Part shown: positions 33,897 to 54,544 of the stretch, one piece after another
Layout of the letters: each line of letters opens with the position of its first letter
How positions within the stretch are numbered: position 1 is the first letter of the stretch
Origin: Climacium dendroides
Lineage: Eukaryota > Streptophyta > Bryopsida > Hypnales > Climaciaceae
DNA: 64,000 nt
Assembly: GCA_950106755.1 (NCBI GenBank)
Contig: OX467089.1
Location: 2,420,501-2,484,500 of the forward strand
Direction of reading: 5' to 3'
Position numbers and translations under genes: made by a program
The notes under the pieces: generated by a model
Database searches by the model: none
What the model was told of the DNA's origin: nothing
Seen by the model: only the letters and a program-made list of their open reading frames with translations

Positions 33897-34729
33897 ATAG
33901 TAAGAGTTTTTGTACATACTAGAGGAGTTGATCGGAACCGGATTCTATCTGGTGGTTGGTAGATAGGTAGGATCGGAAGTTTAGCCGGAAAATGCGACTG
34001 GATTCCGTGACACTTTTTGCCTTTTTGCGCTTTTGTGGTGTTGTATATAAATCTGCCCTGAGAACGGAAGAGGCAAAAAAAAAGTCTTCTTTTGCAAAAT
34101 TCTTTGGTGTCTTCTGTTTTTGCTGTTGTATGTCTGTGCCATGAGAGTTGTGTGCCTGCTGTATGACCGGAAGTGAGGAGAGCAAAGAGAGAAAGCTAAG
34201 AGTTGACATCTTCTCCCCTTGGTATATTTTATTCTTTAAGTTTTAGTGCATGTGAGTAGGTATTAAAAGAGTTGGGAGTGCGCTTCAGTTCCTCAACGTG
34301 TCTAGAGTTTGAGATTCCGGGTGAGAAAACCGTTGTTAGGCTAGGTGGATAGGGAGGGATTCCCTACTTGCGCTAGAACTCCTGGGTGGGAAATCCGGTT
34401 GAGTGTCTGATCTTCTGTGAGGTCTTGCTGCCATACTTGGTAAACGGAATAGCTCTAGTAAGTGTTGGAATGGACGGGTTCACTTGTAACCACCTAACTT
34501 CGCACAGATAGGACAGAGTGCCCAAGGTCGTTGTAGTATCAGAGGATCGTACGGGGGGTCTTTGTGTGACCTGCAATCCGAATTAATATCCAGGTTGTTG
34601 TGAGAGATCAAATCGGATCCGTAGTAAGTAAGAGAATAGAAGATAGAAGAGTGGGATCTTCCGCCACTATAAATTACGGAAGGAGTGGTGGGCCTACCAC
34701 TCTAAAAACTAAGGGGCGAACCCTCTGAT
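33897..34729 (+). repeat. LTR of the X6 element, truncated
   Basis: Homologous to 19632-20781, with a TATA box TATATAA at 34044-34050. It stops inside the GAACCCTCTGAT block at 34729. In the other copies the next bases are GGTAAAACAGAGG, but here the 27-bp terminal repeat of the large element begins instead. Confidence 0.85.
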
Positions 34730-35174
34730 AAGGCCTTATTCGTTAAATTGAGACAAAATGGTCATTTTGAGACATTGAAAACCGGAGTGCGAAGCTCAAT
34801 TGATTGAATAGTTGTAAATGAACCCTCAACTCACAACAACAATAAAGATCTCTAAGGCTACATTCTAGAAAATAATTAGCAAAGAATAAATAGATGCATA
34901 GAAAAGTGAGTTGAATTGCATTCAGTAAGCTCAAATTACTTGAGAGTTTAATTACACAAAGAACTTTCAAGCCTCTATCACGATGTCACTGAACGTAAAT
35001 GGCTATTGAGCACTAGGTACTCTGAATTTGTGTAGAAACGGAGAGGCTAACTGTACACGTAAACCTCAACTTTTCTAAGTAATTTTTTTTCTGTATTCTA
35101 TTCAGCATGCTATTTATAGGGTTTAGGCAATTTGACGCCCATGGTGTCCAAAATTGAATTGGCTTGACCAAATG

Positions 35175-36110
35175 TCATTTGTGGCCTATACAATTGTTCT
35201 TGGCCGCCTCCAGCGCCTCCAACGCCTTCAGCCTTGCCATGCCTCTATAGATATCCTCACATCGTGAGGACTGGTACGATGCACTTGGATATTGCGCGCC
35301 ACTGCTAAGGTCCATACTTGGAGAGGTACTATCCTTGCGCTTTGCTTGACGCTTGCGTGGAGGTAATTCGGAGGAAGACATGGACCTCGATCCTCGAGGT
35401 GTCGGACGTAGCATATCGACATTGTTTATGTATGGACGTGTATTTCCAATTGATTTAGAACTCGTTGACCGCTGCTGTTTTCTTGCCATCGTCCGCCGAA
35501 ACAGAATGTGCGAGGGAAGTAATGTTCGCTGTCCAACACTACGCGGGGACGGGGGCCCACTATCCTCAAGTCGAGGCAAATGAGGTGCACTGTGAGTCCC
35601 CACCTGTGCCCCCCTTGCTTGATTCGGCAAGCCAACTAGCTCCTTAACGACCTCCGTCTCCGTAGCTAGACCTACAGAATCTGTCGGGACACCATCTTTG
35701 AGGCGAGGATGATTTGTACCGTCGCTGACAGGGAGAACAAGCTTCCGATTCGTGACGACATTGGCCCATGGCGGGGGCGAGAAGGGGCATCCTCGACTCG
35801 AGGATGCTCGCTTGGGCGGAGACGGGGAGTAGACGGGGGTTTTGATGGGTCCTCGACTCGGAGGACTGTCCACCACGCCATCTTCAACATCGGCCTTCGA
35901 GAAGTCAATGGCCGCAGACGTTGCGTCCTCCGCCGTGCGCATCATGTAGGGCCCTGAAAACATGGACGGTTTGGTACTACCTCCGGTAGAGCTTGACGCT
36001 TGGGAGAGCGACTTCTTCGACCCGGAAAGGAGGCTCCTGGCCCCCCGGTGATGTTTGCCTGTTTCAGTTCCATTTGGAAAACCAACCTGCAGGAAGCCCA
36101 GATTACACAA
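35175..36110 (-). CDS. Ser/Pro-rich disordered protein of the large element
   Basis: A 311-codon minus-strand frame, very rich in Ser, Pro and Arg, with no folded domain that I recognise. The C-terminal part has a basic patch (PPRKRQAKRKD) that could direct it to the nucleus and a short helix near the end (MARLKALEALEAAKNN). At least four copies of the region-specific palindrome lie inside this frame, read as PRLED, SSRGCP or SRGP depending on phase. It may be a terminal exon of the adjoining leftward gene and not a separate gene. Confidence 0.4.
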   Translation of the reverse strand: MCNLGFLQVGFPNGTETGKHHRGARSLLSGSKKSLSQASSSTGGSTKPSMFSGPYMMRTAEDATSAAIDFSKADVEDGVVDSPPSRGPIKTPVYSPSPPKRASSSRGCPFSPPPWANVVTNRKLVLPVSDGTNHPRLKDGVPTDSVGLATETEVVKELVGLPNQARGAQVGTHSAPHLPRLEDSGPPSPRSVGQRTLLPSHILFRRTMARKQQRSTSSKSIGNTRPYINNVDMLRPTPRGSRSMSSSELPPRKRQAKRKDSTSPSMDLSSGAQYPSASYQSSRCEDIYRGMARLKALEALEAAKNNCIGHK

Positions 36111-36351
36111 GTTCTGCCCACATTATACTGCTGATGAAATGGTCACTAGCAAAGGAAACGCATATTCACTTGGACAGACAATTGGAACGCTCGATACAAC
36201 AGCGGAACATCTGTGCCAAAATCTTTGCTCTCAAAATTATATACAATTGAATAAATGTACAATATTACAAAAATACAAAACGTGAGTTCCTATCCAATCC
36301 AAACCTACGAGGCCGTCCGAAGGAACCCTAAACAAACGACTGTAGGGATGA

Positions 36352-37158
36352 CTAGGGATCGCGTCTCTCCGGGCCTATCACTAGCTGGAGGCTTAGAAGC
36401 TCAAAACGATATCCCAGATTCTTGGCAGACATCCTCATCCCCTCCACGAGGAATTGTACTTGGTAGTCGTTCTTCGTGAGGGGTTCCAAGCCAATCCTGT
36501 TCGCCCCTACAAACTCACGCAGACGCCCCGGATCGCGCACCGACTCTAAGCGCGCAAGCCAAGGAAGGAGTTCTGACATGAGGAAGTTGTCTGTCAAGTG
36601 CGCACGAGTCCAGGTATTAAAGAACACAGCATTCCACAACTCATTGCAAATGCTCTTTTCGGGAGAGTCATCAATGAGCAGGGTGTTGTTCATGTTGAAA
36701 GTCGTGCGCACGCCCTTGTGGTTGAACATGCGCTCAGATAGGACTTTCAAGAATACCGGCTTAGAATCGCGCGTGGGAAACTTTTCCTTCGAGGTCTCTA
36801 TCCTCCTGCATTTCTCCTGACCTACGACGTCATACGGGGCTTTTATTCCCCTAAACAAATGCTCGACGACCAACTCCGTAGTGGGCTGCACCATGGAGGA
36901 CCATATGACAATCCTGTCCGCGATCTGGGACACCTCATGTAGGAACTGTCGGACGTTCTGTCGCGCGAACACGGTCTTTGGCCCGACGATAGTCGGGTTC
37001 AGGTGGCACAACACATTGTCTTCCATCCGATACGGCTTGAAACTATTAGCGACTGACCTCGGCAAGCACTGACAGAGAATGCCGTTCAGATCGAAGACAA
37101 TGTTGAGCCACTTGACCAGGGTGAGGGCTCTACGATATCCGTCACGTTCTCTCTGCCC
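36352..37158 (-). CDS. FCP1-like HAD-superfamily protein (putative phosphatase)
   Basis: The minus-strand frame opens after a splice acceptor (GCACAG) near 37158, upstream of the first internal Met at 37065. It carries HAD motif I as IVFDLNGILCQ, then an FCP1-type block ARQNVRQFLHEVSQIADRIV IWSS, and motif III NNTLLIDDSPEKS. FCP1/NIF-type enzymes dephosphorylate proteins such as the RNA polymerase II tail. In motif I the second catalytic Asp is Asn (DLNG in place of DxDG), so activity is doubtful; I believe similar DLNG forms exist in plant FCP1-like families. It lies in the leftward gene block of the large element. The 5' exons are not resolved. Confidence 0.7.
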   Translation of the reverse strand, partial: GQRERDGYRRALTLVKWLNIVFDLNGILCQCLPRSVANSFKPYRMEDNVLCHLNPTIVGPKTVFARQNVRQFLHEVSQIADRIVIWSSMVQPTTELVVEHLFRGIKAPYDVVGQEKCRRIETSKEKFPTRDSKPVFLKVLSERMFNHKGVRTTFNMNNTLLIDDSPEKSICNELWNAVFFNTWTRAHLTDNFLMSELLPWLARLESVRDPGRLREFVGANRIGLEPLTKNDYQVQFLVEGMRMSAKNLGYRFELLSLQLVIGPERRDP

Positions 37159-37643
37159 CTGTGCAATTCTACCTAATGAAAGCAGAACAACAAAGAAATG
37201 GAGTTACCTATTTGAATGCAGAATCAGGTGAGCTAGACAACGGGACGAAGCACAGAATTCCACTAATGGATTGCATGTTCCAGTATGAAAGCAATTTCAG
37301 TGTCCTCGGATGGTGCAAGCGTTTAAGAATTATAGGCTGAGCAAACAAAGCATCGACAAAGATTGAAATTAGAAGCCTGTGAGAACAGGAATTTTATTTA
37401 CATTTTCTTTACAAAGATTACATGTTACACTTCGCGCGAAATTAAATGAAGCACAGATTCACGCGAACACTCTATACTACACTATTCTACACGTAGGCAG
37501 GCCTAGAGGTCTGCATCAATGCCTAGCAATCATAAATGTGATTTCCTGCCAACAAAACTTCATTCAGTACAGGGAATCCACATCAAAAGAGCAGCCTCTT
37601 TTACAAGCCAAGCAAGACATGAATCATTACACATCGCAGATAC

Positions 37644-39201
37644 TTAGATAAACGCATATGGATTAGCCAAGTGTACCTCTGATGCATCGCCTTGTGACCC
37701 CTCGCCCTCACCAACTGCGGTCACCTCCGCCCGAACTTCCCCTTCCTCGAGAATGTTCTCGAGGATGTCTTCTTCGGCCTCCCTGTAATCAAGAAGCTCC
37801 TCCTCCAGATCATCGACACGAAGATCTTCTCCACCCGCTTCTTGGGAAGTTGTGCATAAAGCAACCTCTGCTTCGTCGACTACTTTCGGAGGCCTTGAGG
37901 GTCCTGCCGACGAAGACGCAGGAACTCTAGCAATATCCTCGACTCGAGGATGTGCTGCAGGAGTGACGCCCGCAGATTCGGGGATGAGCGCAGACTGCCC
38001 GTCGTGACGTGTGAGACTAGACACGGGTAACTGAGACGCTGGAGTCGCTACAACGTAGTCGTCCCCGGAGGAACGAACCTCGTCAGTCTTATCCTCGACT
38101 CGAGGATGAGAAGGATTGGCAGCATCGTGGGACGCGGATGCTACAGGCAAGGAAGAGTGGACTGGAGGTGGAACTGGAATTTGGCTCGGGATAGTCTACG
38201 ATAGAGATCTAGCAAAAAGTTCCACCACCATTTCCTCCAGCTTGGCGCACCTCAGGTTGGTCTCTTGACTCGAGGCCACAGCTTCTCTGATCTGCTTGTC
38301 CTTGAGGTCAAGCTCGTCCTGTCGTACCTTCTCTCCTGGCCTTCTGCTCATTTACCATGTCCCAATATCCGGGATCATCCTTCACTTTCGCGGAAGGCTT
38401 AGCCGCCGACTCAGAGATTGCCGGTGTCGACACGACAGCCTCTTTTTCGAGCTCACTCTCTTCGTCGTCGTCGTCAGAGGAGTGAGGGAAGTCCTCTAAA
38501 TCAAAATCACTTAGATCCACAACCTCGTGAGTGATTACGGACTTCATTTTTTGGCATTCGACAGGAAGGACGACTTCACCGGCTCTACCTTCAACCTCAT
38601 GCGCTTGGGAACCACCCATCGTGGCATCCGAAATCTCATCCTCAGCGTGGTTTTGTGTAGCTTCTAACTGCTGAGGAGGAGGCAGCTCAGGTGACCGCTA
38701 CACAGGTGATTGCTGACGAGGTGGTTGTCCCCGATCTCCCCACTGCTCTTGCGTCCGCTTTGTCCTCAGTTCAGCTTGCCGTTGGTCCCACTCCGTATCT
38801 GTCTCAACGTCTTCGTCTGCTGAAGACCCTGCCTCGGTACTCCGCACAGGCTTCAAAGTGGGCACCATACTCCCATATTTGTCAATGCAAAGCAGGTCCT
38901 CATCAGGAACTGCTTCTGAGGAACGCGGTGTCACCACACGTCTGTTTCCAGAACCAGAGTCTTCATCTGATGACTCTCGCTCTGATGCTGACCGAGGTGA
39001 TTCCAGATCGTCGCCATGCGGCGGAGACACGGACAATAGAAGCGGAGACCCAACGTACAACGGCCGCACGTATTTCACAGAATACGGGGAATTGATATGA
39101 AGAAAATCATTCATATCCAATGAGTCAGCCAACGTTGCCACTACTCGATGTCTTGCCGTTAGATCTTTGTCTACAATGCCGTAGAAGTATGCTCCGAACA
39201 T
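37644..39201 (-). pseudogene. Acidic, disordered C-terminal exon of the leftward multi-exon gene
   Basis: The exon starts after an acceptor (TTGTCTAG) at 39202 with MFGAYFYGIVDKDLTARHRV and a globular 70-residue part, then becomes Ser/Asp/Glu-rich. It has TAG at 38700-38698 and a frameshift near 38300, after which a coiled coil (LKDKQIREAVASSQETN) and an acidic tail (EEDILENILEEGEVRAEV) run to TAA at 37644. Two palindromes lie in frame in the tail and are read as HPRVED (centres 38099 and 37943). It follows the exon 39439-40762 across a short intron that itself contains three palindromes. Function unknown. Confidence 0.5.
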
Positions 39202-39438
39202 CTAGACAAGCCAACAATGGAGCCAAATCTTAGTCACTATGATTATAGAGTTTGTATCCTCGAGTCGAGGATAATTTCCTAAACACCATAGTCACTAATA
39301 TATTATGCCATTATGAATAGAATCAACTATATCTTCGAGTCGAGGATAATTCAAGGATCATAAAAACATCTAAAAACAAAGCCTATGCTAGAAAATTGAA
39401 CAAAAGCAATAAACTATCCTCGAGTCGAGCATAAGCAT

Positions 39439-40762
39439 ACCTTTGCAGCCAGCACACACTTCGATCCTACGTAGATGCCCAAGACATTTTCGCCGGAAAC
39501 CGCGAAGCTTTGGAGGATCTCGAAATAGAACTCCATTCGAAGTTCCATCGTGTACAACCTCCACTTCGCTTCATTATTCATGAAGGATTCCAGGTAGTAC
39601 GGAATATCGGGGGTGCCGTATTCCGTTTTCATTCTCCGCCGCACCAGAGAAGCGTGCTCGTCACCCTTCTTGAACAGAAAGAGCAGCGGCACTGGAGGAG
39701 CCGATGACTGGTTTGTTATATTGTTCAGCCGCTCCATTTGGATGGAAATGTATCTTGACTGAATGCAGTCAAACTCTGTGAGTTGAGTTTTGGCAAATTG
39801 TGCAGTAGTTTGCCGTTCAACTAGGTCGCCCAGGATCCACAACCATACACTCGCCTCCGTAGCTGCTGGCTGCAGCTTCGTGGCGAGGAACTCCAGAAAT
39901 GGTTGCAGAGATGGTGTTTTGTCCGTCTCCTTGGGCTTCCAGAGTTGACGGACATCAAGAATGGCGAGGTTGAGAGGCCGGGGCTCATAATTGTAACTCC
40001 CGCTAACGACGAGAACCCTTTCTTAAACGTCCAGTCCCCTCAACGCCACTCCTCCAGAAATAGAAGGCAATCTATACTTCAACTTCATGAACCTTTGAAA
40101 AAGAGTTTGTTCGTCCTCGAACTTCTCTCCAAGATCTTTTGCCCTCCGATTCTTGGCTTCATTCGTCAACCTCTTCTTAAAAAATTCTCCTCGAGGGTGT
40201 AACAGAAGGAAGTCCCATGTTGACGCAGAAAATCGGTGCCTCGCTTTCCATGCCCTCCAGACGTTGTCCAAGACGTCTCCATTGTCGTGTCGTAAGTCCA
40301 ACAAGGGCTTGATAGCTATGAGTTCTTCAAGGACAATCTTCTTCCGCTTCCTGTGTTCAACCCAATCTGCGCCAGTGTAGTTGTCGGGCACCAAAATCTT
40401 CGTCCTCTGCACGGACACTTTCGGGTAAGACCCATTCCGGAAAGGTGTCTTGTTCAACAAATGCAACGCATATGCAGCCAAGTCCTTGTTTGTGAAGTGG
40501 CCGAGGTGCTTGAAAAACTCTCGTTTCAAGGAAAAAGCTTTTCGATTGAAGCCCTTGAGCTCTTTAAACTTCAGCCCTATGATTGGCTCGTCTAACTCGC
40601 CCTTAGAATGCATCATCAGAAATTCATTCCAGTACTTGAAAAGATTGTCCCGAAGCGTGATAATCTTCATCTCACACTTCAAGTCAGTTGCTGTCTTGAT
40701 AGTCGCTCCGTCCTTTTCCGGATTGATATTTTTGAAGCGACTGACCATAAGCATACAAAATT
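39439..40762 (-). pseudogene. Middle exon of the leftward multi-exon gene (unknown domain)
   Basis: A long minus-strand exon between a TCTTGCAG acceptor (near 40762) and an AAG/gtatgc donor (near 39439), continuous except for a TAA at 40025-40023. It encodes about 440 residues: a basic first half (KFKELKGFNRKAFSLKREFF) and a second half with VLVVSGSYNYEPRPLNLAIL and LWILGDLVERQTTAQFAK. The second half vaguely recalls the non-catalytic part of DNA-methylase-like proteins, but this is weak. No catalytic motif is seen. The introns on both sides carry palindromes. Confidence 0.5.
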
Positions 40763-40921
40763 TCTGCAAGACACGAGTAGGTTGGGTCAATGCACAACTA
40801 CATCTTGCACTTATCTTCGAATCGATGATAATTAATTACTACTAACATGTGTTGCAAACAATGTCTACTATTGGAAATCTATCCTCGACTCGAAGATAAT
40901 GAAGATCATTCAAGACTTACC

Positions 40922-42399
40922 TGGTACTAGGTACTACTTAAGACGGCTCCATTTCTTCTCAAATTTGCCTCCTTTGAATCATTTGTCGGGCGGAGACAGT
41001 GGATCCAGATGTTTCGACAACTAACAATCTAGTTCCCCCAGGTTGGCTACGCGTGATCGAGGTGGTTGGTGGAGTTGTAGAAGGCGGAGATGTTCGTCAA
41101 CATCTCTGGGTCTAGGGTCCACACAACGTAAGCCTCCCACGTCTGAAGTTCTCGCCTTCGCGTTTCACCACAGTCCTCAACCTGCAACTCCTGAGAGGCG
41201 GTGACACTGTGTTGGCCATTGATTATCATGAATCCGTCGTCCTTAATGTCATCCCGTTTCAGGGGAGGGGACTTCAAAAGTCGTTTCTTGGCATCCACGG
41301 GAGTGATGCAAATATGCTGCCTTTACTTGATATCGCCCAATTGGATGAGCTCCTTCTTCACGTCCTCAACAATGCCTCTCTCGAGCTTCCGAATAATATA
41401 CTCGTCTCTCGCAAGAAAGCATTGTTTGATCGACACTACGACAGGGTCTTGGCCCAACACAAAGCAGGCGGCGTGAGTCTTCCAAAAATTCTTCTGAATT
41501 TCAGCAAACTTCTCGAAATCCTTTTTCTCCTTGTTGACTGCTTCCACAGTCGTAAGAGGTGACCCAGAACTACCAGCCACTGTTGATTTGGATGTAGTGC
41601 CTCTCCGCGGTCGCTTTGGCTTGGAACTCGATGGACCTTTGGATTGAGTCTCCGGACGACTGCGTGGCTCCGAACGCACTTGTCTTGGACTAGTTGCAAC
41701 ACTACCCGAAGTAGTCGCTGTCTAGCTTGGGTCAGTTGATTTCCTTTTCTTTCGATTTTGAGGCGCACCAATTGCAGGGACTTGCTGCACATGCCTGATT
41801 GCATATCGATCTAACGCTCCCCAGATATTATTGAGTCTTCTACAAATGACAGACGCTGTACCATCAATCCAAGGCAGATATTTTGATGCCTCAAACGTCC
41901 TCACCAATTCCGTAATCTGAGACGCCTCCAAAGTAGCGACGAGATACGCCATGTCGAACCGTGCGTGATCACTTCTTATGTCTAGGACAAGAGAGTGGTA
42001 GTGATCACCAACACACCCGTCTTCCCCAACGTCCCGGAGCACAATAACGACATAGTGTTGGTGGTGCTCTTTGATTACTGAAACTTTCTCGTTTTGCTTC
42101 AGTGGTAAAATGGTCGTCTGATCCTTGGCGCGGTAGAGAAGGTAGACGTAATCCTTGTACTTATTCATGCCGAATGACCACGTGGCAATGTTGTCTTTGA
42201 ATCGCCAGAGCTTCCCATAAGTCTCTGGCAATTCAGCTATGAACGGCTCGTTCACAAACGGGTTCTTGAACGGCTCCATCAGTAGTAGTGCAGTCGAGTA
42301 GTCGTAACTGCCTTCCGCCTCCGTATCTGCACTTACCCACATATTGATCAGGTTACGACTTCCACTGAGGATATCTTCGAGTCGAGGATGTGTTTCCAT
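40922..42399 (-). pseudogene. N-terminal exon with ParB-like motif (leftward gene)
   Basis: A minus-strand frame from METHPRLEDILSG, with stops at TAG 41724-41722, TAA 41325-41323 and TAG near 41049, and a donor (CAG/gtaagt) near 40922. The first 225 residues are unrecognised. A Ser/Lys-rich linker follows, then GFMIINGQHSVTASQEL, which looks like the ParB/Srx-type DGxHR motif, and a downstream ISAFYNSTNHLDHA block followed by a PTWGN segment. In ParB-like folds this motif lies in a nucleotide-binding or DNA-acting domain. The HPRLED near the start is encoded by a copy of the local palindrome (centre 42381). The assignment rests on motif resemblance only. Confidence 0.45.
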
Positions 42400-43889
42400 T
42401 ATTTCTAGGCTTGACTCCTGGAATGATATTACTTCTACTCATGGCGTGATGTCAATGTTGATAGCTAGATACGATGGCGACCATGAATATGGTCTATCCT
42501 CTCAGACAAGAGGAAGCAATGTATCTTCGAATCGAAGATAAATGACCGTCATCATTGTGGACCTAGCTGGAGTAATGGTTCCTTCACTTTAGTCTTCTGA
42601 TGCAATTGAATTATATGTGTTTCATTGATACGGGATTCCATCATCTTCAGTGTCATTATGTTGTTCTCTTGTGTCTCTGACATACCTGAATAGGCCTTTG
42701 GCAGGCTTTAATTTTTTCTTATCTTAGCATTTTTAATTTGTATTGATGAACACAATTATCTTCGCATTGACGATAATAGTAGCACGGACATTCTAGGACT
42801 GCGCGTAGACATCGAAACACTCAAATTTATTGTGAATTAAAACTCATCTAATGGAATGTACAATGCTGGTCTTACGATAATTAACTTGGTTTTCCAACGC
42901 TTCAGCTATCATTTCTGCAAGGACATCGGATTATTATTCTTTTTGTTGTGCGCAATTTATCCTCGACTCAAGGATAAATTGCACCATGAATACACGAGGT
43001 TATCCTCGCCCCGAGGATAATTATCCTCGAGGCAAGAATAGATTTGAGACCCCTCGAATTTGTTATCGTCGAGTCGAGGATAATTATCCTCTCTAGAATG
43101 ACTAGACCCTGAAAATGAAATCGTGCTGGACTAAGGGAAAATACAATTATCTTCGGGTCGAAGATAACTGCAGCATGTTCGTTCGGGAAATGGACGTGTA
43201 GGCATAAACCCTAAAACTTATGTTCAAATGAAGTTCCTTGAATCCCATATTGTATTACTAAACCCTAAATCATTCGTCCAGATAGGAACTATGAATGTAA
43301 CAACTGAACACTAATGAACTCAAACCTTGTTACAGGCAACTATGAACTAATCAAAAGGAAAAGCAACAAATCAAACTGCAAGTGCAATGCAAGAAGGTAG
43401 AAATTGAAATTCAAGAACAAGAACTGAATACATACCTGACAATAACAGCAATACACAAGCGTTGAAACCCAAAAAATTCGTCGACGCTCCACTCCAACTC
43501 CAATACATGCACCGTGGGAAAGGACGATTCTAAACGACTTGGAAATGAAAATGAAGGTGTGCGTAGAGCTTCAAACTACCATTCACAAACCCAAACACAA
43601 AAACTTGCGCAAATAACTCTTACACAAAGATCACGCACACAGAATTCAATTGAATTCACTGAACTACACGCACTCACAAGAAACAACTCACTCAACTACA
43701 CTGGCCGCAAAGAATCACGCACAATTATGCACAACAACTATACACACGTACAGACACTAAACAAACTCACAGCTCAAAAAACAAATGCGCGTACGCGCGT
43801 TGGCGAGAGGGAGATGACCTACCAAGGCAGTGCCGAACCTAAACGGCGGCAGGCTCGGCAATACAAATTGGCGGCGCCAGACCACGCGG

Positions 43890-46150
43890 TGTAGGCTCCG
43901 CCCGCTAGGCTCAGCGACAGCAGGTCTGGGTAGTAGGCTCGGCAGTCTGGGGAGGAGTCAGGCTCGGTTTAAAGGTTTAGGGTTTAGGCAGTTCCTCTTT
44001 GTCCTATACAGAATGTCTTAGGGTTTAGTAATTCGATTCCTCGTTTAATGTTCAGTTATAGGGTTATTACATACACGTCCGCTCCACGAACCAGTTATCA
44101 TCGACTCGAAGATAATTGCAATTACCAATAGTCCAGCATGACTAAATATTTAGGCCATAGACATTTACGCGAGGATGATTATTGTCGACTCGACGATAAA
44201 AAGTTCCTAGGGTCCCAAATGTTTTCGTGCTTCGTAGATACTTATCCTCGAGTCGAGGATATTTATTCTGAAGGCGAGGATAATTTAGTAGACCTATGGT
44301 CCTTTTTATTCTTGAGGCGAGGATATTGAGTCCATTGAATGATTTGCTATTCATGTCTAAGAGTTTCCTAACATCTTAAGCAAGCTGTAATCAAAGTATT
44401 GTGTAGGGTTCATGCAATCATAAGGGATTTTTTGAATTTAGGGTTAACTTTTGTAGAAAAATTTCAATTTATTCAATTCAAATTCTTTCGCTATTCATTT
44501 CATCGGAGTCTACAGATTTTTATGAAATCTATAAATAATTTGTTAGTGGGTCTGTTACATTCATTTGAATCTTATAGGGTCTTATTGAGGAGTTTGAAAG
44601 CAACCCTACCCTGAACAAGATTAATTGGAAAAAGATCATATACATTGAAAATAGATGTAGTTCTTACGATTTTTTTGGACCTAAATAAATGCAACACCTA
44701 TGAATAAGAAAATTTTTGTAGAAAAAATGTTATGGTAAATAATTTATATTGCTAGAATTCAAAATATTTCCTCAAAATATGTATATTTTAAGAAAAAAAT
44801 TATAATTTCACTATGTATTATATATGCTTTGCATATTATTATTTTAGGCTAGAAGCAATAATTGTGAGTGATTTAGCAAAAGAGGTTTTATATTTATACA
44901 AGATCAAATAATACTCTAAAATTATTCTTATCCAAATTAAATTCAAATTTTTTCATTACAATAAAAAACATTTGTATCCAAACATATGATGAATTTTATT
45001 ATACAATTTTTGACTACATAGATTGCAAGATATAATTGAAGTTCAGTGTAGTAATAAATATTTTCGAGGCACCTTCCGTTATCGTAATAGCTTAATGAAC
45101 CTTGAATTCTCTTCATTTGAAATTCCTACATTATTTGTAGAAGAAGGTTTTATTGCTCTCCATGATACTGGTGATACAAGATTGAAGCTTTGGAGGCCTT
45201 GTTTCCAAGCTAGGAGACCTCGTCAATTGTGAAATTGTTCTAGTAAGTAGTCTAGAATTTTTTAATACAAAAATTGTAATTACTATCTAAATTGCACAAG
45301 CTTCATTTGAAGGATTGTATGTTCAAATTAATTTCTAGTATGTTCCATGATACATTGGAAGGATATTAGTAGACATTCTAAGCTCTTAACAAATTGGTTC
45401 CATTATCTAATTAAAAATAATAATGAAGAAGCTCTAATAGTTCTTATTTTATCACTCTTTCCTTTCTTTAAACATACTTTCTTTTTATCCATTTCTATCC
45501 TGGTCGAAAAATGAAATATTGAAATTCTTCCAAAGGGCTCTCAACCCATTGTATTTTGGAGAGGGAGTACAAGTAAAATACTTGAAATAAACTTTTCCAA
45601 AATACAAATGAAATGTTCAAAAATTATTATTGCATGTGAATTTTTAAAGTTCCTACAACTTAGTATTAAAGTTTTTATAGTTTTGTTGTCAAACAAAATT
45701 TCACTATGTTTTAATGCACCTATTCTATTAAATTAATGTCGGAGACTTGCCTTAAGATCATCTACAATATTTTAAGAAAATTCTGCACCCCATCCTATTT
45801 TGAAATTGACTGCATTAAACTAATATAGCACTTTATTTTGAAACTTATAGCATTCAACTAAAAGGGCCTATTGTTGTACTTACTAAATGACGTCAGACAA
45901 AGCTATACATGATTGTGGAAGATATTGATTATAAGATACTTTTAAAATTTCATGCAATCACTTCAAGTATTTTGATGTCACTAGAATTTGCATAAATTTC
46001 CATATAAATTTGAAATGGGCTCAATACAAATCTATAAAATTAAGAAATAGAATAATGAAAAATCTAAAACAATTAAGAGATAGAATTAAATATACTTCAT
46101 CTACCCATGGCTATACTAATTAATAAGAACACCCCCCTTGTGATGGATCA
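43890..46150. other. Spacer between the leftward and rightward genes of the large element
   Basis: The part up to about 44340 still has palindromes. From 44400 to 46150 it is very AT-rich, with no palindrome and no supported gene (a few small ORFs only). Short telomere-like repeats occur at 43975-43990 and at 46151. Confidence 0.5.
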
Positions 46151-46182
46151 CTAAACCCTAAACCCTAAACCCTAAACCCTAA
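46151..46182 (+). repeat. Interstitial plant-type telomere repeat (CCCTAAA)n
   Basis: About four and a half perfect CCCTAAA units in the middle of the large element. Plant-type telomeric motif; too short to be a chromosome end. It may be a double-strand-break repair scar. Confidence 0.9.
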
Positions 46183-47832
46183 CGTTGAATCGATCGTCCA
46201 ATCTTAGAAGTGATAAATTCCCTGGCCGTAAATGCTATCCGGAAACTCCTGGAGAAGTGACTTAAATTCCGCTGCAATGATCTAAACTTGGAGCAAGTTG
46301 ACTACCAAAAATACTTGAGCGGCGCCATGAATTTGTGGACCGAATGTAAATTAAGGATTCCTCTTAAAATATCACCTTCCGATAAAGCTGTCAAGAAAGA
46401 AAGCCGGAATTTGTGTCCTTTCTTAAAAGTCGGGTTTTTTGAATTGGAACTTGCTAGCACCGTGCCGCTATCCTTGCCGCGCTGTTATCCTTTCAGAACT
46501 GTTCAACTTTCTCTCCCACGAACCTTATTGTATTTTGTTTTGGCCTTGCTGCACAGTTCTCATGCATGCAACAATTTCTTTTGCGCTGCTGTTCTGCCGT
46601 CGCCGCCCGTTTTTTTGGTTGCACATTGTTGCTTACGTGTGTATTGTCCTACTGTTTTGAGCGTGAATGGATTTGAAATCAGGAGCTTCTTAGTGAGGTG
46701 AGGTCTCTTCAAGTTCTCCTAATTTTGAAGTATTTTTTGCTATCATCGTCTTGCATGTTGTTGTTGTTGTTGATGCCGATGTGCTTTGTCATTGAGATGT
46801 AAGGCATATTTGTACACCGTATTCTGTGTGTTATGAATCAACTGGTTGCAAGTGGTTTTGTGCATTGCTGTTCAATTGCTATTCAATGTTGTAGTATGTT
46901 TGGAGTCCAGAAATTGCGGCGCAAATGTAGGAATCACTTAAACCCTGGAATGAATTTATCCTCGAGTCGATGATAATGCATTTGTTTGTTTGTTGTTGGG
47001 TACGCTTATCTTCAAGTTGACGATGATTCATTTCTTGAAGGCATTTGATTGTATCATTATCTTCGAGTCGACGATAACTGATATTTTCATTTGTGACATT
47101 TCTGGGTATAGTTATCTTCGAGTCGATGATAAGTGATAGTCACCTTTGTGGATATTCTGGGTACACATATGTTTGATTGAACGTTAACTGATTCATACCT
47201 TTGTGGTAATTATGTGTACACTTATCTTCGACTCGACGATAATTAATTGATTGTTACCTTTATTTCAATGTCGGGTACACTTATCTTCGAGTCGACGATT
47301 GTTGATTACTAGCCTAACGGAATATTGTGTATATATTATAAATTTACTTTGAATGAATTATCTCTATGTCTAGGATAAAATCGATAGATCACTATAGCTT
47401 ATATTCATTTTGTATTGAATATTTCTTTTGGATTGATCTTTAGATGGATGGGTCTTTACAAGATAAGAGGACCTGAAGTCTTTAGATTTCTTTATCAATC
47501 AGAGAGTGTGATGTATTGATTTATCTTCGAGTCGAGGATAATTTTATTAAAATATTTGAAGTGAATCTCCGTTGGATGAGTTCATTCTAATTTTCTGATA
47601 CACCTGTAGGTGTTATTTGGGGTTACTGCATGAAACTCAGTAATGTGAGGAACTTATAAGTGGCGTACAAAGTAAACCTCATTCTGAAGCTATTCTTCGT
47701 TGTTTGTGGTTGGATTAGAATTGTTTTGATTTTTTATCGTCGATATGAAGATTATTAATGGAAATTCTAGTTTGAATCAGTAATAGTTGTGTCATTTCAT
47801 CCACATAGGATTTGATTTTTATGAGCGGTGAA

Positions 47833-48249
47833 TTTTGAATTCTTCGTACATATGGATAGCGTTTAGTTTTTTTTGTATCTGATATCAGTTGCTTTTGTCT
47901 GATGGTTTGATATATGTTCAATTATCCTCGAGTCGAGGATAATTGTGGATAATAGTTTTCTGTCATGGTGACTTTTGAATTCTTCGTACATATGGATAGC
48001 GTTTAGTTTCGTTTGTAATTGATATCAGTTGCATTTGTCTGATGGTTTGATATATGTTCAATTGTCCTCAAGTCGAGGATAGTTGTGGATAATAGTTTTC
48101 TGACATGGTGGCTTTTGAATTCTTCGTACATATGGATAGCGTTTAGTTTGGTTTGTAATTGATATCTGTTGCTTTTGTCTAATGGTTTGATATATGTTTA
48201 ATTATCCTCGAGTCGAGGATAATTGTGGGTAATAGTTTTCTGTCATTCG
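47833..48249. repeat. Triplicated 140-bp unit, each with one palindrome
   Basis: TTTTGAATTCTTCGTACATA recurs at 47833, 47973 and 48113, a period of exactly 140 bp. Each unit carries one palindrome (centres 47932, 48072, 48212). The array ends about 90 bp before the transposase start codon at 48336, a position where a promoter would lie. Confidence 0.93.
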
Positions 48250-48335
48250 ATTCTATAGTCTTGATATTTGAACTTGTAGTTGTACTATGTCGTTGAACAC
48301 CTTATTTTTCTAACCGTGGACTACTGTTTTGTAGT

Positions 48336-51300
48336 ATGGATATTCATGGGCCTGATGATTTCGTCAATCCGGTCCCCACTTTACCCGCTGGTATTGCAGT
48401 GTGTGATGGGGTCCCACGGGCTTCTTGGATCACAAAGGGTGTTACTTTGAGGAACGACGCAGGAGATGATGTTGCAAGAGGAGTATGTCATAGCGTGGAT
48501 GCGGAGGACGTCATCGATGCGGATGGTAAACCTCTTGGTGATGATCGGGTGGCCGTTCAAATTGTAGAGTCCTTATGCGAGGAGGAGGTGCCGTCTGTTT
48601 GGATGTGGTCTATGCGTTCTTGGCACATAAAACTCGTGTTTTTGAATGGCGTGAGTTTATATGACCATGACCAGACACACATATACAAGGCAGCAATGAA
48701 TGCCATTGGTCGTCGTGTTCGTGTTGGTGTTCGTTCCTATGAAAGCTGCCAGGAGAGAAGAGAAGCAGACCATCCACTCAAAAAGGACTCCCTTCTTACT
48801 ATAGAAGCAATTACAGAAGTGTCTACGAAGACATGTTGCCCAAGCAATTGCCTGCAACCGTTTCCTCGCGGAGATATTCAAGCTCTATGATCTGGACTTC
48901 ATGTGCATGGTGGGGTGTATGTTCGCAAACGGTGTCTCATTGAGGTGCACAGGCAAATCCACAAAGATTCTGCTGGGAAGGAGTGGATAACCTTGAGGGG
49001 TCGGGAAGTGTGTCCTATGGCTTGGTGGACAATTCATGGTATTTCAAAAGCTACATTCTATAGGTACAAATAGATGGCTAAGAATGGGCAAGAGGCTGAG
49101 GGGCACGGGAACTTAGGGACTAAAAAACCGCGCGCGCAAACTCTACAAGCTACTGCCACACTTCGCATGTTGATTGAGAATGATGCTGACAAAATGCCAC
49201 ACAAAACAAGGACATTGGAAACTGGGGAGAAAGTGTCGGCAATGGTGTTGCCATCATCTTTTCGTTGGAGTGACCAATTACCAGCAATGAATGAAGCAAA
49301 TACGGCATTTAATTTGCCACCAATTTCTTTTAGTGGCTTGAGCAATATTCGACGTGCTTCTTTTCTAGAGTTCGCAGCGAAAGCCCGTGGAGATAGTTTT
49401 TCAAGGTGTGGCCTCTGCGATAGGTACAAGCAATTGAGGAGTGCTTGCATTCCGCTTTCTACTTCAGTGAACAAGTGGGCGTACCTTTTGGGTACTCATC
49501 GATCGGGGCAACAGGCACATAGACTACTTTATTATGGGAATCGGCATATGTTAGAGACGTACCCCGAGAAGATGTTGTGCGTTATTCATGACAAAATGGA
49601 TCACTCGAAGACAGCTTCTCCACACTACTCTCATAAAACCAAAGTGACGGACTCTTTCATAAAGATGTCCTTTGCTGTTACAGAAATGATTGCTCATGGT
49701 CATGGCGACTTTCAGTATGCGCACTATGGGCTCGATATTTTTCCAACGGATTCAAATCATACCATTGGCTCCATTGCAAAATTGTTGCGTGACTTGGAAG
49801 GACCGCCTACGAATTCATCGCGCCAACTATTCTCTGTAGAGGAGGGTCAATCTACCTTGACAAAGGCAATACTAGAAGGATCAAACATTTGCCTTGATTC
49901 CCTCTTACCTCCTCCACAAGAGCCTATTCCACCTAAACCTTTGCCACCAATACTTACTTTGCAGTTGGACAATGCATCTGGGGACAACAAAAACAGATGG
50001 GTGTTTGCCTTTTGCTCTCTTCTTGTTTTTAAAGGCATTTTTCGAGAGATTTACATCAACTTCCTCATTGTTGGGCATACTCATGAAGACATTGATGCTC
50101 TTTTTGGGAGATGGAGTACAATGTTGAAGACAAATAGCTACTCGACTATTCCGAGGCTGATGAAATCCTTTATGGATTGTGAGAAGTATCCAGTGATTCT
50201 TCATTTAATAGAGGAAGTTCTTGATTTCAAGAGGTTTGTCCACGGGTACTTGGGTACAGCTGGGGACTTCTTAGAAGGTCATTCGGCTTGCCAACAATTC
50301 AAATTCTTTATGGATTCCAATGGTTGGCCCCTGATGGCAGTATAAGAAAACCTTGTTTTAGGTGACATTCAAAAAAACAGCTAACGTCAAAGGGAACGAA
50401 TTTTAGGTGACGTTGAAAAAAACAACCTATATTTTTCATGTCAATAATGATGTCCAATGGAACATTAATGGAGATAATTGTTGACAGAAAAACATAGGTT
50501 GTTTTCTTCAATGTCACCTAAAATCCGTTCCCTTAGACATCGAAAATTTTGATTTCTTCTAGTGTGGAGTACAAATATTTGTGTACGGATCCAAATTGGT
50601 TGCCAGAACATGGTCGAGGGATTCGTTTGTGGTTTGAGACTGAAGATGGGCGTCCAAAAGTGCCAAATGGTAGTCCACCGCCTTTGGCTCCGGAGGAAAT
50701 GAAAGCGTCAGAGGAGATCAAAAAGGGTTTGGATGGTTTTATTTCATATTGGACAGAAATGGCCAATGAAGACCATTCAGGAGAGTTTTGGAGGAAGAAT
50801 GATCCGATAAGAAATTATTGGAAAGGTGTGAGAGCCGCTCTAGATGCACCCCTTTTGGTGCGTAATACATTGCAGTATGGATTTTGGCTTGCTTCTAGAA
50901 TCAACAACGAAGTGGAAGACCGAATGGAAGACGATGGCACACTACGTGAAGAATATGCAGAAGATGCGCCTTTTGTTGGACGTAGACGTGATCGTCCACG
51001 GCCATCGTTCCGTGTTGGTCGTGATGTATACGCAGGTTATTTTGTTGTTGTGCGTCTCGCTGATGGTGACCCGAAGCCATTTTGGCTAGCTAGGGCGATT
51101 ACAAATCCAAATCCGGATCCAGGGCATATTTACTTGATTCAAATTCAATATTGGACGCTTGTTTCAAGTCGTCACATCAACATGGACACATACGCTGGAT
51201 GGAATACAAAGGCAGGAAATGTATGGTGTGAAGATTGAGCTATCCCTCCAAGTTGGTCAAATACTGATTGTATTATGACAGCTTGGAAGCCATGCGGAAA

Positions 51301-51400
51301 GAAGGGGGCTATTGATGTACCTCAAGTTCTTACAAAAGTTTCTATCCCTAAACCGCAAATCAGCATCATTAAATCATCCGTAGAAGCCTTTGTGGTTTAA
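48336..51400 (+). pseudogene. DUF7869-like candidate DDE transposase, broken by stops and a MITE
   Basis: One frame runs from ATG 48336 to about 51400 with in-frame TGA 48888, TAG 49071 and TGA 51236, and a CACTA MITE at 50338-50564. Removing the MITE and one TSD copy leaves the frame continuous. Order of blocks: acidic N-terminus; REVCPMAWWTIHGISKATFY, helix-turn-helix-like; a CXXC-like RCGLCDRYKQL; CVIHDKMDHSKTASPH; LQLDNASGDNKNRWVFAF; NFLIVGHTHEDIDALFGRWS; C-terminal TDPNWLPEHGRGIRLW. As I recall, the D..D, DN and HEDID signatures typify the widespread DUF7869 family with an RNase H-like fold, so acidic residues in these three blocks could form a DDE triad. It reads toward the right TIR. 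I infer that it mobilised the 17-kb element. Confidence 0.7.
50338..50564. mobile_element. CACTA-type foldback MITE inside the transposase, TSD TGG
   Basis: The left end CAGTATAAGAAAA and right end ATTTCTTCTAGTG are inverted, CACTA-like termini with two mismatches. TGG flanks both sides (50335-50337, 50565-50567). Internal arms of about 60 bp (AAGGGAACGAATTTTAGGTG block and its inverse AATCCGTTCCCTTAG) make a hairpin. The coding frame is restored across the site if the insert is ignored, so it landed in a once-intact gene. Confidence 0.9.
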
Positions 51401-51928
51401 GACGTAGTGTGCCATCGTCTTCCATTACGGATCATCCTTGGCGGTTTAAGAAGAATAGTTACTTTGATTTTATTGTCTATATAATTTATTAGTATTTTAT
51501 TATTAGAAGGATAGAAGCTGAATGCACATTTTCATTTTAGATATTTGCAAGTATCAATTATGTTGTTTTGAATATGATATTGACTGTGGTTATATGCCAA
51601 TATTAATTTCTATTAATAGTATGAAATTGTTATGTTTCTTATAGATGTGATTTGAACCTTCAATGCGCGCATTTGCAATGCTTTTCAAATCTTTGAGATG
51701 TAGAAGTAGTTCTTGCAAATTTTTTGTAATTCAAGTTTGCAAATCACTTTTCTAGTCCCCCTAAACCCTAAACCCCAAAAAAATTTCATTTTGTAATGCC
51801 TTGTTGCATTCAATCAACATATTTATGTTCACAAGATTCACCACAAATTATATAAAATATAATTTGACATGAGAAATGAACAATTATTTTAGTGTAATTA
51901 TAGATTGGATTTAAAATGAGACTCTTAA
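51401..51928. other. AT-rich region between transposase and right TIR
   Basis: No gene. Contains a short CCCTAAACCCTAAACCCC motif near 51767. Ends at the right terminal inverted repeat (51929-51955). Confidence 0.6.
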
Positions 51929-52022
51929 TTGTCTCAATTTAACGAATAAGGCCTTGTATGTTGTAGAGATTCCATGATCATCATTTACATTCTCCTGAAT
52001 GCAAAATCATGCTTGTGTTGTA

Positions 52023-54180
52023 GATATTTCAAATTCGAGCTCGAAGGAAAAGGAGCCTTTAATCGCTCAGACCTTCCCCCCTTCCTATCATCATATCTGG
52101 ATCGCACATCCTATTCTTGTATGTTCACCGCACACCAACTCCGCACCTACACCACAGCTCATCTCAGCGGTGGAGGATGGTACCTGGATTGTCTCCTCGA
52201 GTTCACTCCTCCTTCCGAGGTTGAATTCAGGAGATCTTTGGACGGGAAAGGGGTCCTGGACTTAGAGATCAATGAGTTTACAGGCCTGGATGACAAAGCG
52301 AGAAAGAAGGCCATTGCAAGGAGGGATTTTCTGGACCGGAAGAAAGAGGCGCGGGTCCAAGTCCACCTTGAAGCGAAGGAGATGAAGGCGTCCGAGCTCA
52401 TTGACAAAAAGGTGGCAAAAGAAAAGGAAGAGAAGGGTAAAGGCAAGGAAAAGGGAAAGAAGAAAGAGGAAGCGGGAGGTGAGGTGGTACCATCTTCCAC
52501 CGCAAATGAAGATTCACAGGCGCAAAGTGCAGTACAGAAGAAGGCTACTCTCCTACAGCTCATCGAGGAAGTTATCACTCGTATGACACAAGCCATGGTC
52601 ATTACAGAAGGTGATGTTTCCAAGACGGAGGATTTGATCCTCAACATCTCCATCAAAGTCCTGGCAAAAGACATGGTCGAGGAGAAGCCCACGTGGTACA
52701 ACGAGGTGCTGCAAAAGGTATGCATATGCATCTTTGTACTCAAAAGCGAATTTTGTGCTTTTATGTCTCATGAATGTTTTCTGTGCTTATTTTTAACTTC
52801 ACCATGTTCTACATGTTTGCAGATGTCGGCCGGAAAGACTCGCATGTTCGAGGGAGTGCCAAATGCTCGACCGGGGGTGGATGTCATATTCATTGACTGT
52901 TCAGAGAACTTACCCGTGCCTGGGCTCTCTACACCGGCCCATGAGGTGCCAATGTAGAATGCAGATGCTGATGATGAGGCTCTCCAGTTGCCATGTAGCT
53001 TCGCCGCAGAGCATCTACAAGATGATGGGTGCATCATTCTATTTCACTCCTACAGCATCAAATCCAAAGAGAACATTGCTGGGGTATGTGAGGCGTATGA
53101 CTTGCTGATGAAGAAGGACTGGATGGGGATGAACCGCATGCACATCACCTCGGCTATAAACAACACAAAGACGGTAATTTTCATAGAATTTTGTTGACTT
53201 TTATGAACAAGTTGCAATGCACTCCATTCAATGCATTCTTACGTACATTTGCTATGGACGTTGCAGACACAGAAGTTTGGAATCACCCTCCTCGTGAAGG
53301 ACCTCGGCTCCAAAGGAAAATCCAAATTTTCCTTCAAAAAGACTAACACCACAATGAAGGCTGGTGTGGACTTGGCTATCGATGACATGCTGATCAATTA
53401 CACCCATGCAGATGACGTGGCTATGAATGGAAACAAACCTTGGCGAGGCGGACGCAAAAAAGATCCAAGGTTCTTCACTATCCTCCTGGAGGCAACAAGC
53501 GTTCCAGGAGACTTGATTTTGGATTGTACCGCATCTACAGGTAATGATTCCATTCAGAAGTTTACTCCTCCAAATGTGTTCTTCCAATTCTTTCATGGAA
53601 TTAAGTCATTTTGATTTCACTGCCTCTAGGTGCATGTATTACGGCTTGCTGTGGCACCGGCCACCACATTGTGACTTTGGAAGGGAATAAAGACATTTAT
53701 GATGCCATTCTGAAACCCACGAGGAAGTCACCAACACCCGTAGTGGTGACACCAATTGTGCCACCGATAGTTCACCTTTCACAAGATTTGGAGGATATGC
53801 CAGCGGTGCCTCGCAAATTCGTTCGCAAGGGAAAATCCAGTAAGTAAGTTGGCATTTTCTTTCATCTTTGCTTGGATGAAGACTTTCATGTTCTACAATA
53901 TTGACAATATGTCTTCTTCCATTGCAGAGATGGGAGATTGATGGCAAGGAATGCCACCCTACCCCAACTAAGTCTTCTCATCAGTCCGGAGAAGTCTTTT
54001 GAGCTCCCAATCTATGCCGAGCAAATGGCGAGTGCCTTCGCGGAGTTTGGTTGCTCTAAACCCAAACGCCGTAAAGACACTTACGCTCTAAATGTCTTAC
54101 AGTATATAGATGTTTCAGCATCCGAAGGTAGAGAGTCCTCGGAGTCATCTCCGAGTTCTGATTCTTTGATAGAGTCCTAA
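52023..54180 (+). pseudogene. N4/N6 DNA-methyltransferase-like gene, five exons, degenerate
   Basis: Probable exons are 52023-52717, 52823-53173, 53267-53540, 53630-53839 and 53930-54180, with GT-AG junctions that keep one frame. The first exon may extend upstream. It encodes a charged N-terminus with a Lys/Glu helix, then VDVIFIDCSENL, where class-beta methylases carry DPPY, then LQDDGCIILFHSYSIKS, WRGGRKKDP, and a late ILDCTAST/GACITACCGTGHHI block resembling the AdoMet-binding DPF.G.GST motif followed by VTLEGNKDI. The motif order (catalytic before AdoMet) fits a permuted class. DCSE in place of DPPY and an in-frame TAG at 52955-52957 argue against activity. It lies just outside the right TIR. 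N4C/N6A methylases are known to be captured by eukaryotic mobile elements; whether that applies here is inference. Confidence 0.6.
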
Positions 54181-54544
54181 ACAACTTAGATTCATGAGAT
54201 TGACAAATCTCTTTAATGGGTCAAACTATTATGTGTTGATTTTCATTGTAGTTGGATTTGTGTGTTTTATGGATACTTCTTCCATGTGTTCAATTTTCTT
54301 GCATGTTTTCTACTTGCTTCATTTTCTTCAATTGATAGTATTTTGTCTTTGCCTATAAGAAAGATTGAAAAATAAAAATAGGACACTAAACCGACTCTCA
54401 AAAACAGATCTCATATTAACCACTCTGTACACGGCACAATACCCATGGTCATAGGTCAACTCTACAAGATTCTAAATTTTTTCAATTCATTTTTTTCACA
54501 TCCACAAGCTCGCAGGCTCATAGGCTCGCCAAATAGCAACCCTG
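54181..54544. other. Short AT-rich spacer before ORFX X7
   Basis: No ORF or known repeat. The junction with the retroelement lies at about 54545, where ORFX homology begins without its leader, so X7 is 5'-truncated. Confidence 0.5.

Follow-up and report, generated by a model that had tools for sequence, protein, structure and literature searches.

Organisation of the locus

Within the window (the whole stretch of DNA that was analysed, 64,000 nt), an inverted repeat encloses a block with a rightward DUF7869 gene, a leftward gene termed ORF2 and a dense set of palindromes, as listed here by position and strand.

34730..34756, + strand: left terminal inverted repeat (TIR), 27 bp (window and genome matches; left-flank homology ends at 34728-34729)
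35175..36122, - strand: 315-aa open frame with 3 palindrome sites, a third gene or part of ORF2 (no Pfam match)
36352..37203, - strand: ORF2 C-terminal exon, FCP1/NIF-like HAD, with D-L-N replacing D-x-D
37644..39201, - strand: ORF2 exons, largely disordered (by eye), few coding palindromes at 37808-38108
39202..39441, - strand: ORF2 intron, 3 palindromes
39442..40766, - strand: ORF2 exon 2, amino-methyltransferase-like fold, one in-frame stop in the window copy
40767..40920, - strand: ORF2 intron, 2 palindromes
40921..42399, - strand: ORF2 exon 1, N-terminal region, ParB-like motif (by eye), five in-frame stops in the window copy
42400..48336, no strand: divergent intergenic region, 23 palindrome sites (up to 4 mismatches)
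47057..47299, + strand: tandem array of about 55-bp units containing palindromes
47827..48246, + strand: tandem array, 140 bp x 3, each unit with one palindrome
48337..51400, + strand: DUF7869 gene (Pfam), presumed transposase, three in-frame stops in the window copy
50338..50564, no strand: CACTA-like MITE (by its ends) nested in the DUF7869 gene, with a TGG duplication (from sequence)
51929..51955, - strand: right TIR, 27 bp (window and genome matches)

The gene reading to the right end had been described as DUF7869-like in the initial annotation, and Pfam agrees (PF25273, E 4.8e-41). The leftward block is multi-exon, as was also proposed, but it is mostly one gene, ORF2, and not several cargo genes. 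ORF2 is made up of a ParB-like motif (by eye), an amino-methyltransferase-like fold, a disordered part and an FCP1-like HAD. The FCP1-like HAD that had been noticed in this block is the C-terminus of ORF2 (PF03031, E 6.2e-10), while the ParB-like motif can be made out by eye and is given no match by Pfam. When the structure of ORF2 exon 2 was used as a query, the best 50 of 369 matches were methyltransferases or their complexes (best E 4.3e-4). Both genes are broken in the window copy, the DUF7869 gene by its in-frame stops and by the nested MITE, which is missing from 9 other copies that align across its site.

In Pfam scans of the element proteins, DUF7869 and NIF were above the cut-off and a Mutator domain was absent. 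The predicted structure of DUF7869 was poor (pLDDT 61) and a fold search with this poor model returned nothing significant; a PDB sequence search with the DUF7869 and ORF2 alignments gave no match. DUF7869 was also not found in the literature searched, a limited search which carries no wider claim.

The two flanks were said to be different kinds of DNA, and they are: the left flank, up to base 34729, matches 19906-20418 (78%) and 28030-27545 (72%), whereas the right flank (51956-54540) has no match elsewhere in the 64,000-nt window. By eye, the left flank is retroelement-like. The claim that the content of the block is unlike everything outside it does not wholly hold: the right flank has another FCP1-like gene at 61.2-62.9 kb, and at 52.0-54.2 kb a gene that looks methyltransferase-like by eye and has no Pfam match.

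Terminal repeats and copies in the genome

The analysis identifies the block as a copy of a giant, high-copy TIR DNA transposon with hundreds of ends. The 27-bp inverted repeat (34730-34756 and 51929-51955) is perfect and, with up to 3 mismatches allowed, has only these two matches in the window, none being found in 100 shuffles. In the host genome (413 Mb) it has 829 matches, 412 forward and 417 reverse. Pairing was based on 100 exact places listed of these 829, ends with mismatches being outside this list; among these 100, the genome-wide search suggested by the initial annotation found 16 inward pairs, 16.6-35.6 kb apart. By comparison, neighbouring places within 40 kb were outward in 5 cases and on the same strand in none. 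The target duplication was sought in other copies, and an exact 4-bp duplication was present in 15 of the 19 TIR pairs examined, compared to a mean of 0.12 and a maximum of 2 in shuffled TIR pairs. Seven further copies are colinear with the window copy at about 93-98%, and each of the 10 copies examined, of which the window copy is one, has the palindromes and the same layout of two divergent genes, DUF7869 and ORF2.

Inward terminal inverted repeats round a conserved interior and a target duplication of fixed length, two features of a TIR DNA transposon, are both present. For a third, a DDE/RNase H-like transposase, the candidate is DUF7869, which is present in all 10 copies and whose weak model has no fold match. 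The proposal that the TIRs, the transposase-like gene and the element's own palindromes form one mobile unit is borne out by the TIR counts, inward pairs, 4-bp duplications and colinear copies. A chance arrangement in which unrelated DNA is flanked by ends of a short, common MITE would fit the missing duplication and unlike flanks of the window copy, but it is next to impossible given these same pairs, duplications and colinear copies. MITE ends would be less than about 1 kb apart, and among the 100 listed exact places (of 829 matches) no inward pair is shorter than 16,627 bp.

The window copy itself has no target duplication, as had been noted, its flanking tetranucleotides being TGAT and GTAT. 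An exchange of flanks with the neighbouring copy c38a was considered as the cause and was rejected, the flank tetranucleotides having no cross-match. It was also considered that AAGGCCTT at the outer end could be an 8-bp palindromic target duplication, with a TIR of 19 bp; this was rejected because the full 27-bp pattern has its 412 + 417 matches and the true 4-bp duplications are located outside it. In viral contigs, no relative of the DUF7869 protein, its alignment or the 19-mer was found. A single palindrome site occurs in each of two viral contigs.

The DUF7869 protein is very likely the transposase, which would cut and paste the element at its TIRs and leave the 4-bp target duplications.

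Position and spelling of the palindromes

The palindrome TATCNTCGASTCGANGATA is found in introns and between genes, away from the conserved domains and the element ends. The palindromes had been described as seen nowhere else in the window. With up to 3 mismatches allowed, TATCYTCGASTCGARGATA occurs 29 times in it, and every one of these sites is indeed within the block, at 35561-48221, with 0.01 expected. Exact half-sites, TATCNTCGA, number 41 inside the block and 0 outside it within the window; with one mismatch, there are 77 inside and 36 outside. In the window copy, the density is 5 sites per 394 bp of intron and 23 per 5.9 kb of intergenic DNA, with 0 in the DUF7869 gene, ORF2 exon 2, exon 3 and the HAD exon. 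In ORF2 homologues that are seemingly read into introns, the motif is encoded 14 times, in 10 of 42 proteins (about 0.36 expected). Frame-2 motif peptides occur 3 times in DUF7869 homologues (0.3 expected) and once in ORF2 homologues, in conserved or single places, which makes them uninformative.

Purifying selection on the palindromes was looked for within the W family and none was seen: the palindromes show no excess conservation over their flanks (pairwise divergence 0.0455 vs 0.0426), and CpG decay in them resembles that of other CpGs.

The fifth base of the palindrome differs between subfamilies, being either Y or R. It is Y in 349 of 440 half-sites in 8 W-family copies and in 2 of 206 in 8 other loci of the same genome (42/52 vs 0/44 for W against c1a alone), a contrast whose significance is overstated because the copies are related. 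L013, which comes from another genome and has Y in 10 of 10, was excluded from these sums. Distant elements keep the core TCGASTCGA and have changed outer bases, with TTCAGCTCGASTCGAGCTGAA in L011 and L012 and TATCCTCGASTCGAGGATA in L013; 0 of 21 palindrome sites are in conserved exons. In L001, whose own repeats supplied the pattern, TTTAGCTCGASTCGAGCTAAA is matched at 10 sites when up to 6 mismatches are allowed (0.08 expected).

Discussion

By analogy with VANC, the palindromes may provide a self-address through which silencing would be countered, with ORF2 as the probable reader, its binding being predicted. That they are an address for the element's own ORF2 protein, and not end-recognition sites, is a tentative reading to which we give a little less than an even chance. 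The best explanation as a whole, a giant transposon driven by DUF7869 with a palindromic address read by ORF2, appears to us evenly balanced.

In this explanation, ORF2 would combine a ParB-like region with a methyltransferase-like domain, whose catalytic motif is altered, and with an FCP1-like HAD, whose motif is altered too. Its dimers would bind the half-sites located in the element's own introns and promoters, and the bound protein could maintain expression of the element's genes despite host silencing, as VANC does for VANDAL. Spelling and reader would evolve jointly in each subfamily, the spelling changing at the fifth base or, in distant elements, at other outer bases; tandem duplication of units that carry palindromes would contribute to this. 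It is possible, although more doubtful, that a lineage of giant plant transposons encodes an evolving palindromic address that is private to it, and a reader composed of ParB-like, inactive methyltransferase-like and inactive FCP1-like HAD parts. This reader would recruit or shield transcription on element DNA only, and a single base of the address would insulate the subfamilies of one genome from each other.

Another explanation is that the DUF7869 transposase itself binds the palindromes, in the manner of subterminal repeats, for complex assembly or for repression of the transposase promoter. Many sites are directly upstream of the DUF7869 gene (7-13 with up to 2 mismatches in the 2.3 kb upstream at 6 of 6 further DUF7869 loci sampled), and L001 too has a palindrome code beside DUF7869. 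However, in the 8 copies with both ends, the outermost sites (up to 2 mismatches) are 0.8-4.7 kb away from the left end and 3.4-3.8 kb away from the right end, and the ORF2 introns, far from the ends, also hold sites, which makes this explanation unlikely.

A host transcription factor, or a hairpin function of the RNA or DNA, could also drive the element promoters with no element-encoded reader, and the clusters of palindromes in introns and between divergent genes would be in line with this. The changes of subfamily spelling within one genome would, however, be unexpected for a single host factor, and we regard this as improbable.

Marginally less probable again is that ORF2 is an active DNA methyltransferase marking the element's palindromes. 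The usual catalytic motif of amino-methyltransferases is (D/N)PP(Y/W), which has a known expected place. At this position D-x-R is found in 34 of 40 ORF2 homologues and the usual motif in 0 of 38 readable ones, and Pfam N6_N4_Mtase gives a match in 1 of 40, a weak one (E 0.0035), which argues against an active enzyme. The amino-methyltransferase fold of ORF2, with its matches to methyltransferases, favours self-modification, which has been proposed for the ParB-methyltransferase genes of algal transposons (PMC12477816).

If the palindromes are instead an address read by ORF2, the element would offer a second system for testing the coevolution of reader and site. To our knowledge, the molecular detail of how a transposon discriminates its own DNA from that of its host while it evades silencing comes chiefly from VANC in Arabidopsis. 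Here, the same motif layout is seen in a giant element with other genes, whose sites are palindromic and differ between subfamilies and one of whose genes is a candidate for the reader. Physcomitrium, a genetic model, encodes homologues of both the DUF7869 and ORF2 proteins. The many DUF7869 proteins would also gain a likely function.

Comparison with known systems

The initial annotation could not name the type of this element; by analogy with published elements, it is probably Sola1-like. Sola1 leaves target duplications of 4 bp, and those found here have this length. The same length is given for Sola2 in PMC3627910. Giant size is common to our element and Sola1 (Physcomitrella Sola1; Ectocarpus Sola1-1_Ec32, 21.5 kb), Sola1 being named in Physcomitrella in PMC9033089. 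Ectocarpus has already been reported to hold giant Sola-1 elements that carry a ParB-methyltransferase gene, on the strand opposite the transposase (PMC12477816), and here too a gene with a methyltransferase-like fold and a candidate ParB-like region opposes the strand of the presumed transposase. The likeness to Sola1 is one of size, duplication length, gene content and layout. As described in the same paper, such accessory proteins also occur in green and red algal transposons (PMC12477816, citing Iyer et al. 2011 and Petroll et al. 2025), and by this description ORF2 is of the same class of accessory gene; it has the methyltransferase fold of this class, a ParB-like motif by eye with no Pfam match, and lacks an intact amino-methyltransferase catalytic motif. 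ORF2 differs from the Ectocarpus Sola1 gene in its FCP1-like HAD and altered methyltransferase motif, and a word search of the main text of that paper (PMC12477816) found no mention of palindromes. What appears to be new is the palindrome code with its spelling by subfamily, together with the fusion of an FCP1-like HAD in ORF2.

VANDAL elements are Mutator-like, and the element proteins here differ from theirs as far as Pfam shows. Motifs are in one orientation in VANDAL, whereas here they are palindromes. VANDAL motifs are short and dense in the element only (PMC5735166 and PMC10398659), and the VANC target motifs are intronic and intergenic, have spread through tandem repeats and are subfamily-specific (PMC5735166). 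The palindrome layout here parallels these target motifs of VANDAL21 and VANDAL6, a likeness of motif layout taken from the sequence, from which binding and demethylation are predicted.

Results

The 27-bp perfect inverted repeat enclosing the element at 34730..51955, which the initial annotation reported at two places only, is indeed unique within the window. Across the 412.6-Mb assembly (123 contigs), the 27-bp pattern was matched 412 times forward and 417 times in reverse at ≤3 mismatches; the reversed control gave 0 + 0. The genome search for inverted pairs that had been proposed was successful: among the 100 places listed for pairing, all exact matches, neighbours less than 40 kb apart formed 16 inward pairs, spanning 16,627 to 35,614 bp, 5 outward pairs and no same-strand pair. 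Target duplications were sought in 19 pairs: to the 16 inward ones, three wider pairs of about 54, 87 and 109 kb were added. An exact 4-bp duplication was present in 15/19, every word different, compared with a mean of 0.12 and a maximum of 2 in shuffled pairings. The family is therefore a TIR transposon making 4-bp duplications, and the single mobile unit originally proposed stands.

Two of the 15 duplication-bearing pairs, the copies c1a and c1b, lie on one contig and have the same flanks, oppositely oriented; they probably arose by duplication of a single locus, an apparent inverted segmental duplication. Four pairs had no 4-bp duplication. Two of these belong to the three wide ones; the others are the window copy and the neighbouring c38a. 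The window copy, correctly described before as lacking a target duplication (flanks TGAT and GTAT), was probably rearranged at one side. Its left TIR breaks into DNA common to two other places in the window, the homology extending to base 34729. The shared tail and the minor features of the window are:

34211-34729: retroelement-like tail (by eye), with CCCTCTGAT/CCTCTGAA; the copy truncated by the left TIR
19906-20418 and 28030-27545: the two other copies of this tail
15078-16143: tandem array, unit about 100 bp, 10.8 copies; the unit holds GTGAAGGAGT and ACTCCTTCAC in inverted orientation
46151-46182: short (CTAAACC)n array of plant telomere type inside the element; together with the named hits, which are from Physcomitrium, it makes a moss host likely
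52000-54190 (+): gene-like exons, methyltransferase-type by eye, without a Pfam match above cut-off; they start some tens of bases beyond the right TIR and may belong to another giant element
61192-62863 (-): second FCP1/NIF-like HAD (PF03031, E 2.4e-6), in an apparently disordered protein; no tblastn match with the Physcomitrium homologue of ORF2, the leftward gene of the element

Nine further copies were fetched, each with an exact TIR pair, two of them without one end in the fetched stretch. Nested insertions and gaps aside, seven of them align colinearly with the window copy (about 93-98% identity), while the DNA of c1a and c1b aligns with it almost solely over the DUF7869 gene, the presumed transposase (about 72%). 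All ten copies carry DUF7869 and ORF2 on opposite strands. The host genome holds 1878 candidate DUF7869 protein matches; among the 99 scored, identities (query aside) cluster near 89-96% and near 74-78%, and 13 have an open frame of at least 951 aa with no stop within the match, pointing to intact-looking genes elsewhere in the genome. The window copy is broken, with in-frame stops in DUF7869 and ORF2 and a CACTA-like MITE inside the DUF7869 gene (50338-50564, 3-bp TGG duplication). The MITE is probably a later insertion, because the nine other copies align across the site without it.

The leftward cargo block of the initial annotation was confirmed as a block, but its several genes are mainly one, ORF2, which a single Physcomitrium protein of 1551 aa matches colinearly (residues 31-430, 449-885 and 1311-1549). 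Exon 2 has 40 homologues (E up to 0.001). With a good AlphaFold model of one of them (pLDDT 84, pTM 0.77), Foldseek led to amino-methyltransferases: M1.HpyAVI (E 4.3e-4), PvuII (1.3e-3), then MboIIA, MTA1 and METTL3. Two matches had E below 0.001, and the best 50 of 369 were all methyltransferases or complexes of these. D-x-R occupies the expected place of the catalytic motif in 34/40 homologues. In the C-terminal HAD, D-L-N-G was read in all 10 alignments covering that motif, the eleventh (c1b) being cut there, while the DDSP-type motif is largely retained. Measured against what we take to be the catalytic requirements of both families, including the place of the usual methyltransferase motif, this suggests that both parts have lost catalysis, and with that loss reader or scaffold roles could be predicted for the ORF2 domains.

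The palindromes had been described as restricted to the block, and the counts agree. All 29 window sites of TATCYTCGASTCGARGATA at ≤3 mismatches fall within 35561-48221 (0.01 expected), and 35/36 sites of the looser TATCNTCGASTCGANGATA (≤4 mismatches) lie inside the element; the exact half-site TATCNTCGA occurs 41 times inside the element and 0 times elsewhere in the window. Counted at ≤4 mismatches, five sites lie in 394 bp of ORF2 introns, 23 in the 5.9-kb divergent intergenic region, and seven are spread over the beginning of exon 1, the disordered coding part and a 315-aa frame; exons 2 and 3, the HAD exon and the DUF7869 gene hold none. The outermost 0.8 kb on the left and 3.4 kb on the right hold no site at ≤2 mismatches in the eight copies fetched with both ends. 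Some palindromes are within tandem arrays (units about 55 and 140 bp), and at four further DUF7869 loci, 75-76% identical, they repeat at about 207 bp as spaced by eye (L062-L065). In the W family, to which the window copy belongs, palindromes decay at the same pace as their surroundings and extra conservation was not found, as expected if most copies are dead.

The spelling differs between subfamilies. The fifth half-site base was Y in 349/440 cases in eight W-family copies and in 2/206 at eight other DUF7869 loci of the same genome (c1a, c1b and six more), a difference with few evolutionary events behind it because the copies are related; W against c1a alone gave 42/52 and 0/44. The TIR stayed constant despite the changed code, being exact in c1a and c1b and with one mismatch at L068, the sole other end inspected.

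Plant-type DUF7869 and ORF2 genes were also seen on contigs L001 and L011-L013, which a prokaryote genome collection files under the cyanobacterial MAG AVDCRST_MAG81; these contigs look like plant contamination. L001, with DUF7869 in an open 963-aa frame, has the code TTTAGCTCGASTCGAGCTAAA, a pattern derived from L001 itself (10 sites at ≤6 mismatches against 0.08 expected from 200 Markov resamples). The ORF2 contigs L011 and L012 have TTCAGCTCGASTCGAGCTGAA, and L013 has TATCCTCGASTCGAGGATA, with fifth base Y in 10/10; L013 is from another genome and does not enter the sums above. None of 21 sites on L011-L013 fell in conserved exons (chance about 5e-6 under even placement). In ORF2-family predicted proteins that apparently continue from exon into intron, one frame yields the motif 11 times (expectation 0.33) and a second frame 3 times (expectation 0.03), in 10/42 proteins overall; in the same two frames, none of the 120 DUF7869 proteins listed has it. 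Intronic palindromes thus seem to be retained across elements whose remaining noncoding DNA no longer aligns. Three contig sizes (80,586; 252,490; 1,444,176) are shared between the DUF7869 matches (120 listed of 485) and the 40 ORF2 exon-2 matches; these contigs presumably carry both genes.

Discussion

Ectocarpus Sola1-1 is described as a 21.5-kb element with a 1104-aa ParB and amino-methyltransferase gene opposite the transposase, and its authors propose that proteins of this type may bind the transposon that encodes them and modify it (PMC12477816). Sola1 in Physcomitrella is named in a review table (PMC9033089). By analogy, this kind of element is thus already known.

For the palindromes, no comparable code besides VANC was described in a limited literature search, most of the literature being beyond its reach. 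VANC proteins of the VANDAL elements bind short, tandem-arrayed, family-specific motifs in introns and intergenic regions (PMC5735166, PMC10398659). The present element differs in its genes and in having palindromic sites, but it closely matches the VANDAL layout, with motifs in introns, between genes and in tandem arrays that vary by family.
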